From Thermodesulfovibrionales bacterium (GTDB lineage Bacteria > Nitrospirota > Thermodesulfovibrionia > Thermodesulfovibrionales > UBA9159): 34,151 nt of DNA. The stretch spans positions 1-34,151 of the forward strand of contig DASRZP010000118.1 in assembly GCA_035686305.1 (NCBI GenBank). Direction: 5' to 3'. Below, piece after piece: positions 1-3,567 of the stretch. The stretch's first letter is position 1. Every line of letters starts with the position of its first letter. Under the pieces are notes generated by a model. The model was given only the letters and a program-made list of their open reading frames with translations, did not search any database and had not been told where the DNA came from. The translations under genes were made by a program, and so were the position numbers.

Positions 1-696
1 TGTAACAGTAAGTGCGCCGTCGATACTGACGGTACGAGGATTGTCGAATGTCCCCTTAATGAGAGGCTGAGTGCAATTGCCGGAGCCATCCATTATATTG
101 CAGTTATCTATGTAGAGCATGTTCGAGCCGGTTTCAGAAGACCCGGCGTTATGGCCGATGAACACATTGCCGTTTCCGGTATAGTTGTTTTGTCCGGCCA
201 GGGCTCCGACGAAAGTGTTCCAGCTCCCATGGTTATAGTAACCGGCACTTTCTCCAAGGAAGACGTCATAGCCTCCGGCGGCACTGCTGAATCCGGCATT
301 GACACCGACGAAGGTATTTTGAGAACCTTCGTGGTTGCCCAACCCTGCTTGATATCCTAGAAAAACATTGTCTTCGCCGGAGGTGATGTCGCGCCCGGCT
401 TCAGATCCGACGAAAGTGTTGTAGTTAGCAGAGCTATTACCGTAGCCGGCTTCAGCCCCTATGAACGTGTTGTAGTTACCATTCACCTGAATACCAACGT
501 TGTAGCCGACATAGGTGTTCCATTGACCTGAGGTACACCAGCGGCCGGAATAAGCCCCCATAAATGTATCATAGTTACAGGTATCACAGAATTCACCTGC
601 GTTGTCTCCAATGATGGTATTATTGTTGCCATAGGCACTTGCCGACAGGACAAAAAGTACAGAAAACAAGACCGCCGAGATTCTCCTTGACTTCAT
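1..696 (-). CDS. Secreted repeat-rich surface protein (adhesin / tail-fibre-like), C-terminus outside the window
   Basis: An open frame of 232 codons runs off the left edge. It starts with ATG behind a strong ribosome site (AAGGAGGAGAG). Residues 1-23 form a signal peptide (basic start, hydrophobic core, ASAYG cut region). The rest is a ladder of 20-22-residue repeats of the pattern N-T-F-(V/I)-G-x-x-A-G followed by a Gly/Asn/Ser turn; about nine copies are visible. It ends in a passage reading MLYIDN...PLIKG...SIDGALTVT. That layout is typical of beta-helical head repeats in trimeric adhesins and of proteins ending in an S74-type intramolecular chaperone domain, but the diagnostic end is missing. 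Three cysteine pairs (for example C-D-T-C near residues 36-39) are unusual for such repeats. The gene is preceded by a promoter and a GEMM-like riboswitch, which would fit second-messenger control of a surface structure. Function in adhesion is inferred. Confidence 0.8.
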   Translation of the reverse strand, partial: MKSRRISAVLFSVLFVLSASAYGNNNTIIGDNAGEFCDTCNYDTFMGAYSGRWCTSGQWNTYVGYNVGIQVNGNYNTFIGAEAGYGNSSANYNTFVGSEAGRDITSGEDNVFLGYQAGLGNHEGSQNTFVGVNAGFSSAAGGYDVFLGESAGYYNHGSWNTFVGALAGQNNYTGNGNVFIGHNAGSSETGSNMLYIDNCNIMDGSGNCTQPLIKGTFDNPRTVSIDGALTVT

Positions 697-804
697 TTCT
701 CTCCTCCTTTGATGTGTGTTATTCCATAAAGTCTGCATCGATAGATTGTCAAGTTCTATCCCCAGACTACAAATAAGAAAGCCGAGCATACCAAAGGTCT
801 TTCA

Positions 805-885
805 CCCTTCGGCAGCTCAGCCATCTTTTGTTAGATCCGCCGCTTTCCGCCCCTCCTCACGAAGAAATTGGCTTTGTCGGGATCC
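805..885 (-). promoter_or_regulatory. GEMM-I-like (c-di-GMP-I-type) riboswitch aptamer, copy 1
   Basis: Read on the minus strand, the RNA begins GACAAAGCC. It then forms a stem closed by the GNRA tetraloop GUGA (CUUC-GUGA-GGAG). Next come GGAAAGC and a second arm holding CUAA on one side and GAUGG on the other, and it ends in CUGCCGAA. Known GEMM-I aptamers have the same order: a GNRA-capped P2, an A-rich joining strand, and a P3 with a CUAA/UAUGG-type tetraloop receptor ending in GCCGAA. The companion copy at 3448 has GUAA in the loop and a U-G to C-G change in the stem, which keeps the fold. After the aptamer, GAAAG-A-CC and GG-CUUUC can pair ahead of UUAUUUG, a possible terminator switch. 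The core differs from the canonical GCAAAGCC, so the ligand is open. Confidence 0.62.
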
Positions 886-897
886 TCTTTTGATTAC

Positions 898-925
898 ATC
901 GTACCAAAGAAAAGCCATCTGTCAA
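898..925 (-). promoter_or_regulatory. Sigma70-type promoter of the riboswitch and surface-protein gene
   Basis: On the minus strand there is a perfect -35 TTGACA (920-925), a 16-bp spacer and a -10 TACGAT (898-903). Transcription would begin just before the riboswitch and run to the gene starting at 696. The same promoter is conserved in the second cassette. Confidence 0.7.
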
Positions 926-950: not shown

Positions 951-1094
951 CTAATCAGTACATAGGTAAGAGAGCATTGAATAAAAATCTCCCCTAACCC
1001 CTCTTTGCCAAAGAGGGGTATATATGAATGCCTCCCTTCAGCAAAGGGAGGAGGGGAGGGATTTTATGATGTTCTCATACTTTCGAACTCTTAG
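951..1094. mobile_element. MITE-like palindromic insertion flanked by TA
   Basis: Comparison with the uninterrupted cassette at 3436-3665 shows a clean insertion: the second copy reads GAATTAATGG, this one GAATTA-(144 bp)-TAATGG, so TA is duplicated. The insert starts CTAA and ends TTAG. It folds into a three-armed structure: outer arms AAAATC.TCCCCT (984-995) and AGGGGAGGGATTTT (1052-1065), a 9-bp hairpin at 998-1018 and an 8-bp hairpin at 1031-1051. It has no coding capacity. A TA duplication is typical of elements moved by IS630/Tc1-mariner-type transposases, and an IS630-family gene lies at the far end of this window. Confidence 0.75.
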
Positions 1095-1176
1095 TAATGG
1101 AGTTATTGAGGTGGGACCCTCATCATGCCGATCTTTCGGAAACCCGCAATAGTTTCGAGCAGCAATAGGGTAATTG

Positions 1177-1935
1177 GGGTAATTGGGGACACACCCCTAT
1201 TTATTGACATAGACGAGGGCTTTCTGTAAGCTGTTTTCATGGCGAGAATTGGTAGGGCAGTTGCAATAGGATTCCCCCACCACATAGTGCAGAGGGGAAA
1301 CAATCGGGAGAATGTTTTCTTTGCCGAAGAAGATAGGGAGAAATACTTGAAGTTAGTCAGGAATTATTCTCAGAGACGGGATACTCCTGTGCTCGCCTAT
1401 TGTCTTATGAACAATCATGTGCATTTACTGGCCCGCCCTAAGAGTGATATATCCATGTACAAGATGATGCAAGGTATTACTCTATGTTAAACGCAGCACA
1501 GTAACAGGAAATACAATAGAACGGGCAGGTTATGGGAAAGCCGGTATCATTCCTGCATAGTGGATAAGGAGAAGTACTTATGGGCAGTGGCCCGGTACAT
1601 CGAGCAGAATCCGGTACGGACGGGGATGGTAAAGAGGGCGGAGAATTATCCATTTTCAAGTGCAAGGTCTCATATGACAGGCAAAAGGGACGAGATATTG
1701 AGGGAAGAACTCTTTGAGGAGAGGCAGAGAGGAGATTATCGAGAAATGCTGCGTACGAGCCTTTCTAAAGAAGAGATGCAGGGAATCAGAGATTCAACGA
1801 AAACCGGCAGGCCCTATGGTTTAAGAAGGTTCATAGAAACTATGGAGAAGAAACTTCAGAAGAGGTTTATTCTAAGGTCACCGGGAAGACCGAAGAAAGG
1901 AAAAGAGAAATAGGGAATGTGTCCCCTATTAACCC
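1177..1935 (+). mobile_element. REP-associated (RAYT) transposase element with imperfect terminal inverted repeats
   Basis: The left flank GGGTAATTGGGGACACACCC (1177 onward, continuing to 1202) is an imperfect inverted copy of 1908-1935 (AAATAGGGAATGTGTCCCCT, then ATTAACCC). Between the two lies the transposase pseudogene. Further part-copies (TAATTGGGG, CCCCTATTA) sit just outside each end. Such GGGGACA/TGTCCCC palindromes are the usual recognition hairpins flanking RAYT genes. The left end abuts the point where the duplicated cassette loses similarity. Confidence 0.7.
1239..1913 (+). pseudogene. REP-associated tyrosine transposase (Y1/HUH family), broken by one nonsense codon
   Basis: Two open segments, 1239-1487 and 1560-1913, lie in the same frame and are separated by a single TAA at codon 84 (1488-1490). 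The frame stays readable through the gap (T-Q-H-S-N-R-K-Y-N-R-T-G-R-L-W-E-S), so the lesion is one substitution and not a frameshift. Relatives usually have Tyr at this position (TAC/TAT to TAA). The HUH metal motif N-N-H60-V-H62 lies before the stop. The likely catalytic tyrosine, in A-R-Y120-I-E-Q-N-P-V-R, lies after it, aligning with Tyr115 of E. coli TnpA-REP. Total 224 codons, normal for the family. A GTG at 1560 could restart translation, but that product would lack the metal site. The element is probably immobile unless the stop is suppressed or is a sequencing error. Confidence 0.88.
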
Positions 1936-2092: not shown

Positions 2093-3259
2093 TCACATCG
2101 CCCACTTGTATATCTGTATCACGTCATTGAGTGAAGGACAACGGGGGTTGGTCAAGCCGCAAGCGTCTTTCTGCGCATTTTCTGCCATAATCTTCAAGTC
2201 CGCCTCCTTCACACCCAATTCCTTTAGTCCACTCGGAATGCCGACATCTTTCGAGAGAGTTTTGATAGCATCCAAAGCTTTCTCCGCCGCTGCACGTGGT
2301 GCCAGGCCATCAACGTATTCACCCATTGCCAAGGCGACATTTACAAAACGGTCCATCTTTGCAATCAAGTTAAAACGCTCGACAGCGGGCAAAAGTATGG
2401 CATTGCATACGCCGTGAGGGAGATCATAGAAGCCACCTAGCTGATGAGCCATCGCGTGGACATGCCCCAAGCTAGCGTTATTAAAAGCCATTCCGCCGAG
2501 ATATTCAGCATATGCCATCCCATCACGCGCAACCATGTCACCGCCGTTTGCCACCGCAGCCCTCAGGTGTTGTGCAATTAATTCAATCGCCTTTATCGCA
2601 CAGGCGTCCGTCACGGGCGTGGCGATAGTAGAAACATAGGCTTCTACCGCGTGGGTTAGCGCATCCATGCCAGTCGCTGCAGTTAATGACGGAGGCATTC
2701 CTGCCATCAGTAGGGGATCATTGATAGCAACATTCGGAGTCACTCTCCAGTCAACAATAGCCATCTTTATCTTACGTCTCGTATCCGTGATGATGCAGAA
2801 CCTGGTCATTTCGCTCGCGGTCCCCGCAGTCGTATTGATCGCAATAAACGGCGGCATTGGCTTGGCAGATCTATCGATGCCCTCGTAGTCATGGATTTTC
2901 CCGCCGTTTCTCGCCAATATCCCCACTGCCTTGCCACAGTCATGAGGACTACCACCGCCCAGGGAAATGATACTGTCGCAGCCATTCTTTTTGTAAACTT
3001 CCAGGCCATCGTGGGCGTTCTTGTCCGTTGGATTTGGAATTGTCTTATCGAAAATAACCACCTCTGCCTGTGCGTCCTTACGGACTATGTCGGCGATCTT
3101 CTCAGCTATGCCCGCCTTCACAATACCCTTGTCGGTGACAATGAGCGGCTTCTTACAGCCAAGCATCTTGACACGTTCACCTGTTTGTTTGTGCGCACCG
3201 ATACCCATCAGCGTAACAGTGGGAATGTAAAACCCAAATACCTGTTCTCCTACTGCCAT
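2093..3259 (-). CDS. Iron-containing (group III) alcohol dehydrogenase
   Basis: 388 residues, the usual length for the family. It oxidises or reduces alcohol/aldehyde pairs with NAD(P)(H) in the cytoplasm. Visible motifs: the nucleotide-binding G-G-G-S-P-H-D-C-G-K and the metal-site helix H-A-M-A-H-Q-L-G-G followed by L-P-H-G-V-C-N-A, which supplies the iron-binding histidines. The closest known subtypes are 1,3-propanediol dehydrogenase (DhaT), butanol dehydrogenase and NAD-dependent methanol dehydrogenase; the substrate cannot be read from the sequence. The start ATG follows a good AAGGAGG site. It stands alone, about 180 bp downstream of the second riboswitch cassette, so its expression is probably controlled by that RNA. 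A short GCCCT/AGGGC hairpin lies in the leader. Confidence 0.92.
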   Translation of the reverse strand: MAVGEQVFGFYIPTVTLMGIGAHKQTGERVKMLGCKKPLIVTDKGIVKAGIAEKIADIVRKDAQAEVVIFDKTIPNPTDKNAHDGLEVYKKNGCDSIISLGGGSPHDCGKAVGILARNGGKIHDYEGIDRSAKPMPPFIAINTTAGTASEMTRFCIITDTRRKIKMAIVDWRVTPNVAINDPLLMAGMPPSLTAATGMDALTHAVEAYVSTIATPVTDACAIKAIELIAQHLRAAVANGGDMVARDGMAYAEYLGGMAFNNASLGHVHAMAHQLGGFYDLPHGVCNAILLPAVERFNLIAKMDRFVNVALAMGEYVDGLAPRAAAEKALDAIKTLSKDVGIPSGLKELGVKEADLKIMAENAQKDACGLTNPRCPSLNDVIQIYKWAM

Positions 3260-3307: not shown

Positions 3308-3447
3308 ATGGAACCTCTTGACTTCTTCAGTGACAGAGTAACGCTCCAACTATCAATGGCGTCGTGACGTGCTCTTTTCATTACTCTTGCCCCTTGGTTC
3401 ATTCCTTATAATTGGAAACAAAAGAACCGAACTTGCCAAAGGGGTCT

Positions 3448-3526
3448 TCCTTCGGCAGCTCAGCCATCTTTTGTTAGATCCGCCGCTTTCGCCCCTCCTT
3501 ACGAAGAGATTGGCTTTGTCGGGATC
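3448..3526 (-). promoter_or_regulatory. GEMM-I-like (c-di-GMP-I-type) riboswitch aptamer, copy 2
   Basis: Same architecture as the RNA at 805-885: GACAAAGCC, a stem capped by GUAA (a GNRA loop), GCGAAAGC, CUAA...GAUGG, CUGCCGAA. One base is missing in the A-rich joining strand compared with copy 1 (GGGGCGAAAGC against GGGGCGGAAAGC). This is close to the site where canonical GEMM-I RNAs place the stacking adenine. Downstream, AAGACC can pair with GGUUCUU (one bulge) before UUGUUUCC, a possible terminator. It precedes the alcohol dehydrogenase by about 190 bases. Confidence 0.62.
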
Positions 3527-3539
3527 GTCTTATGATTAC

Positions 3540-3567
3540 ATCGTACCAAAGGAAAGCCATCTGTCAA
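3540..3567 (-). promoter_or_regulatory. Sigma70-type promoter of the second riboswitch cassette
   Basis: -35 TTGACA (3562-3567), 16-bp spacer, -10 TACGAT (3540-3545), read on the minus strand. Identical hexamers and spacing to the promoter at 898-925. Confidence 0.7.

Follow-up and report, generated by a model that had tools for sequence, protein, structure and literature searches.

Closest described systems

The riboswitch discussed here belongs to a family with several well-described members. Vc2-type c-di-GMP-I aptamers (RF01051; Vibrio cholerae) combine a three-helix layout with a GNRA loop and the pocket nucleotides G20, A47 and C92. These positions are given throughout in Vc2 numbering, mapped onto other aptamers via covariance-model alignment. 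The Geobacter c-AMP-GMP (GEMM-Ib) switches pilM and Gs1761 have A at position 20 and a terminator that competes with the aptamer; in an example of this arrangement, the pilM switch is turned ON by terminator competition (PMC9262584). In Desulfobacca acetoxidans, one aptamer type occurs with either G or A, all within one organism and in tandem with AdoCbl switches; these aptamers are predicted ON switches, and in-line probing showed that a pocket G favours c-di-GMP and a pocket A favours c-AMP-GMP (PMC9481103). A further clan model, c-di-GMP-I-GGC (RF03167), presumably takes the last part of its name from the nucleotides at positions 20, 47 and 92.

The window analysed here is a stretch of 34,151 nucleotides and constitutes a whole contig of a 3.23-Mb draft genome (97.7% complete) of a Thermodesulfovibrionales bacterium. 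Its aptamer belongs to a known class, has the canonical pocket and is ordinary in kind. It shares the layout, the GNRA loop and the pocket nucleotides of the Vc2 type and scores above the cut-off of that model, whereas it differs in having C21-G46 for G21-C46, a short P3 and a P2 rich in G-U pairs. Terminator competition and the predicted ON direction are common to the window and the Geobacter switches, and Gs1761 presumably also shares the C21-G46 pair and the GGGGCGGAAAGC strand with it, but position 20 in the window is G instead of A. The predicted ON direction is likewise as in D. acetoxidans, and the window has the pocket G that is tied to c-di-GMP there; in contrast to that tandem cluster, the aptamers here are single.

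A duplicated promoter-aptamer-terminator module

An earlier note on this DNA had proposed a GEMM-I-like riboswitch on the minus strand and had suggested the Rfam GEMM-I model as a check. Under Rfam curated thresholds, the proposed aptamer (copy 1; Table 1) exceeds the RF01051 gathering score of 35 bits (E 5.2e-5, calculated over the window and all families), as does a near-copy of it (copy 2) that was absent from the earlier reading. The GNRA-capped stem (GUGA), the A-rich joining strand (ACAAA) and the end sequence (GCUGCCGAAG) are present, as the note had said, and the letters CUAA/GAUGG are present in copy 1. Both scores exceed the cut-off by no more than a modest margin. That the aptamer is not a chance match is reasoned from the nine aptamers in the genome that reach the cut-off (three weaker matches were also found) and from the covariation of its pairs in relatives.

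Covarying homologues, to which the earlier note had given weight, were sought with a covariance model (R1) built from the nine genome aptamers. The model returned 76 matches in the genome itself and its relatives, corresponding to 74 distinct sequences, and 20 of the 21 aptamer pairs are changed on both sides among them, so that P1, P2 and P3 are all backed by covariation. Paired cells amount to 92.6%, as compared to 76.5% in shuffles and 33–49% with slid partners, and none of 500 shuffles reaches any of the covariation measures; fitting the alignment to the structure favours pairing, but the margin is large nonetheless.

Between the two window copies, blastn identity is 93–96% over promoter, aptamer, terminator and a stretch further upstream; therefore, the module as a whole has been duplicated. 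The promoter described in the earlier note is present in copy 1 and its hexamers are preserved in the duplicate, although shuffles yield about as many promoter-like sites, so that the copy 1 site does not rise above chance by itself. The copy 1 insertion resembles a mobile element, and about ten further occurrences of its core (984-1063) are spread over the genome; an inverted-repeat scan of 900-1200 found nothing. Between the riboswitch copies, what is left of a Y1 (IS200-like) transposase gene (1239-1913, plus strand) is apparently broken into two frames.

Table 1. Coordinates of the riboswitch modules and adjoining features in the window
Feature	Position	Strand	Description
5' part of regulated secreted repeat protein gene	1..696	-	ATG at 696; continues on contig C52 to base 1035
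Intrinsic terminator, copy 1	771..822	-	Hairpin 822-781, U-rich tail 780-771; -30.5 kcal/mol
c-di-GMP-I (GEMM-I) aptamer, copy 1	808..882	-	RF01051 41.6 bits; G20, A47, C92, C21-G46
Sigma-70-like promoter, copy 1	898..925	-	TTGACA-16-TACGAT, TG before -10; 10/12 consensus matches
146-bp insertion in copy 1	951..1096		Upstream of promoter, between TA dinucleotides; absent from copy 2
Iron-containing alcohol dehydrogenase gene	2093..3259	-	Downstream of copy 2
Terminator, copy 2	3418..3464	-	Same design as copy 1; arms changed together, GUUCGGU for GCUCGGC
c-di-GMP-I aptamer, copy 2	3451..3524	-	RF01051 37.9 bits; one G missing from lower P2 strand, C22 opposite C
Promoter, copy 2	3540..3567	-	Hexamers identical to copy 1

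It is unlikely that the riboswitch, copy 2 in particular, is a decayed and non-functional remnant. The G lost from the lower P2 strand of copy 2, the insertion upstream of the copy 1 promoter and a truncated aptamer on contig C134, which indicates that decay does occur in this genome, could be read in that way. However, neither copy shows damage to its promoter, pocket nucleotides or terminator, the differences between their terminator arms preserve pairing, and the insertion lies outside the promoter and the aptamer.

Ligand pocket

The earlier note held that the core of the aptamer (GACAAAGCC and GGAAAGC) departs from the canonical one and might signify an altered ligand choice. The core does depart, but these two strings had not been aligned to the consensus in register. 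In the covariance-model alignment, the main difference is that C21-G46 replaces G21-C46, a compensatory flip that the earlier reading had missed and that most siblings share; among the 74 distinct sequences, the 21-46 pair is CG in 40, GC in 31 and UG in two. Both window copies, like every one of the nine genome aptamers behind R1, have G, A and C at positions 20, 47 and 92, which is the canonical c-di-GMP set. Over the 76 matches, the triplet is G/A/C in 57, A/A/C in nine and G/A/U in eight. An altered ligand, as read from the core letters, was accordingly dropped once the alignment had placed G, A and C in the pocket. Judged from the aligned letters, the odd-looking core appears to be a harmless swapped base pair that gives no sign of a new ligand.

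The c-di-GMP-I-GGC model, another check put forward by the earlier note, was also rejected. It is the best clan model for the window in an E-value scan and several siblings pass its cut-off; the window copies score 47.9 (copy 1) and 43.0 (copy 2) against a gathering score of 59 and have A47 against a model consensus of G.

The enzymes of messenger metabolism agree with the pocket. Hypr serine, in place of Asp, is the mark of a GGDEF domain that makes cGAMP (PMC6456294). In the 97.7% complete draft, 11 of the 12 GGDEF genes have the canonical Asp and none has the Hypr serine, the degenerate L022 domain being without Ser at the aligned position; the Hypr GGDEF that would point to a GEMM-Ib system is thus missing from this draft. 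Searches of the genome for a SMODS synthase and for an EAL domain found none; further searches yielded seven HD-GYP-type matches, 19 PilZ matches and one strong c-di-AMP cyclase. Because the pocket is G/A/C, neither Hypr serine nor SMODS synthase was found and HD-GYP and PilZ proteins are present, c-di-GMP is the likely ligand of the window aptamers.

A cGAMP (GEMM-Ib-like) or dual-ligand switch, in which C21-G46 would be the hallmark of a cGAMP-type scaffold and G20 would accept either ligand, is very unlikely. C21-G46 presumably occurs in the cGAMP aptamer Gs1761 as well, A20 versions exist in sister genera, and in every A20 aptamer among the relatives except one, G46 stands opposite C21 or U21. 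Mutations in the lower P2 can shift selectivity (PMC9262584), so some binding of cGAMP is possible. Against this, C21-G46 is found just as well in 33 of the 66 G20 relatives, the pocket is the c-di-GMP set and the genome search found neither a Hypr GGDEF nor a SMODS synthase. The window aptamer is best regarded as an ordinary c-di-GMP-sensing switch, one of about ten in the genome.

The A20 (cGAMP-type) GEMM-I aptamers of the sister genera comprise L306, L307, L308, L309, L310, L311, L312 (in genome G002) and L313 (in G003). They have C21-G46 or U21-G46, and most possess a terminator-like platform. Searches of the genomes that bear them, which are drafts in which some G002 domains are fragments, found neither a Hypr GGDEF nor a SMODS gene. 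It is an unlikely proposal that the C21-G46 scaffold of the family has toggled several times between c-di-GMP (G20) and cGAMP (A20), with the A20 versions answering either to a cGAMP source other than Hypr GGDEF and SMODS or to c-di-GMP via a protonated adenine.

Proposed switching mechanism

A possible terminator, noticed earlier, proved to be a strong hairpin with a U-rich tail. In copy 1 it reads GGCUGAGC-UG-CCGAAGG / CCUUUGG-UAU-GCUCGGC, followed by UUUCUUAUUU, and its 5' arm consists of the 3' strands of P3 and P1; hence aptamer and terminator are mutually exclusive. The minimum-energy state of the full leader is the terminator state. In the predicted apo fold of both copies, the 5' strands of P1 and P3 alternatively pair with each other, which may hinder folding of the free aptamer.

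A P3-complementary arm followed by U residues accompanies 24 of 36 C21-G46 aptamers of the bacterial family, as compared to 0.57 expected from shuffling, and the terminator arms of family members show compensatory changes (for example, CCGAGU/ACUCGG and CCGGGC/GCCCGG).

Since the terminator shares strands with the aptamer, the ligand should prevent termination, and the riboswitch very probably acts as a transcriptional ON switch of the c-di-GMP-I class. RNA polymerase would start just upstream of the aptamer. When c-di-GMP is absent, the 3' strands of P3 and P1 would pair with the downstream CCUUUGGUAUGCUCGGC, and the resulting strong hairpin and U residues would terminate transcription. Binding of c-di-GMP between G20, A47 and C92 would hold P1 and P3 and block the terminator, and the secreted repeat (S74) protein would be made.

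An OFF switch, or translational in place of transcriptional control, is most improbable: both signs are known for c-di-GMP-I switches (Cd1 is OFF; PMC9262584) and the genome siblings labelled C92 and C83b lack a terminator and may be controlled at translation, given that their Shine-Dalgarno is potentially complementary to the P1 5' strand, but in both window copies the U-tailed hairpin overlaps aptamer strands and cannot coexist with the aptamer.

Downstream genes

The signal-peptide-bearing repeat protein that the earlier note had placed downstream of copy 1 begins as described. The end of the window is identical to the first 141 bases of contig C52, and the joined frame encodes 530 aa. The protein opens with what looks like a signal peptide, contains repeats of the NTFVG type and carries a Peptidase_S74 chaperone domain at its C-terminus. 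These features suggest a secreted trimeric fibre-like protein, which we infer may have a role in attachment or surface structure. A conserved link between riboswitch and repeat protein was not found: few relatives have the protein, and in G047, the richest holder, the single aptamer lies on another contig. For the alcohol dehydrogenase downstream of copy 2, 79 loci around the closest relatives, which are mostly from Desulfobacterota, gave no credible aptamer (18.8 bits at most).

Other aptamers of the genome lie upstream of multihaem cytochromes, a PEP-CTERM protein, a lipocalin-like protein and other exported proteins. L095 1084-1164 (+) and L093 1546-1626 (-) are G21-C46 siblings without a terminator before closely similar multihaem cytochrome genes; at L095, the P1 5' strand CUCCGAA is a potential pairing partner of the Shine-Dalgarno UUCGGAGG, suggesting translational control. 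A weak A20-type aptamer-like match at L098 755-836 (+) (R1 24.8 bits, Rfam 19.1) precedes a small exported protein. The truncated aptamer on contig C134 (L099 875-945, minus strand) retains promoter and P2 and has lost P3; it is apparently a decayed riboswitch, and the frame downstream of it resembles a stress protein.

Biological implications

The flipped pair beside the pocket calls for caution, as it is not to be taken for a change in ligand preference. Natural G20/A20 pairs in which ligand switching could be studied are available in the sister genera. With c-di-GMP as the likely ligand, the riboswitches described here would add a small c-di-GMP regulon of exported proteins (S74 repeat, multihaem cytochromes, PEP-CTERM and lipocalin-like) in an uncultured lineage, together with an unusual target, the alcohol dehydrogenase behind the duplicated switch.
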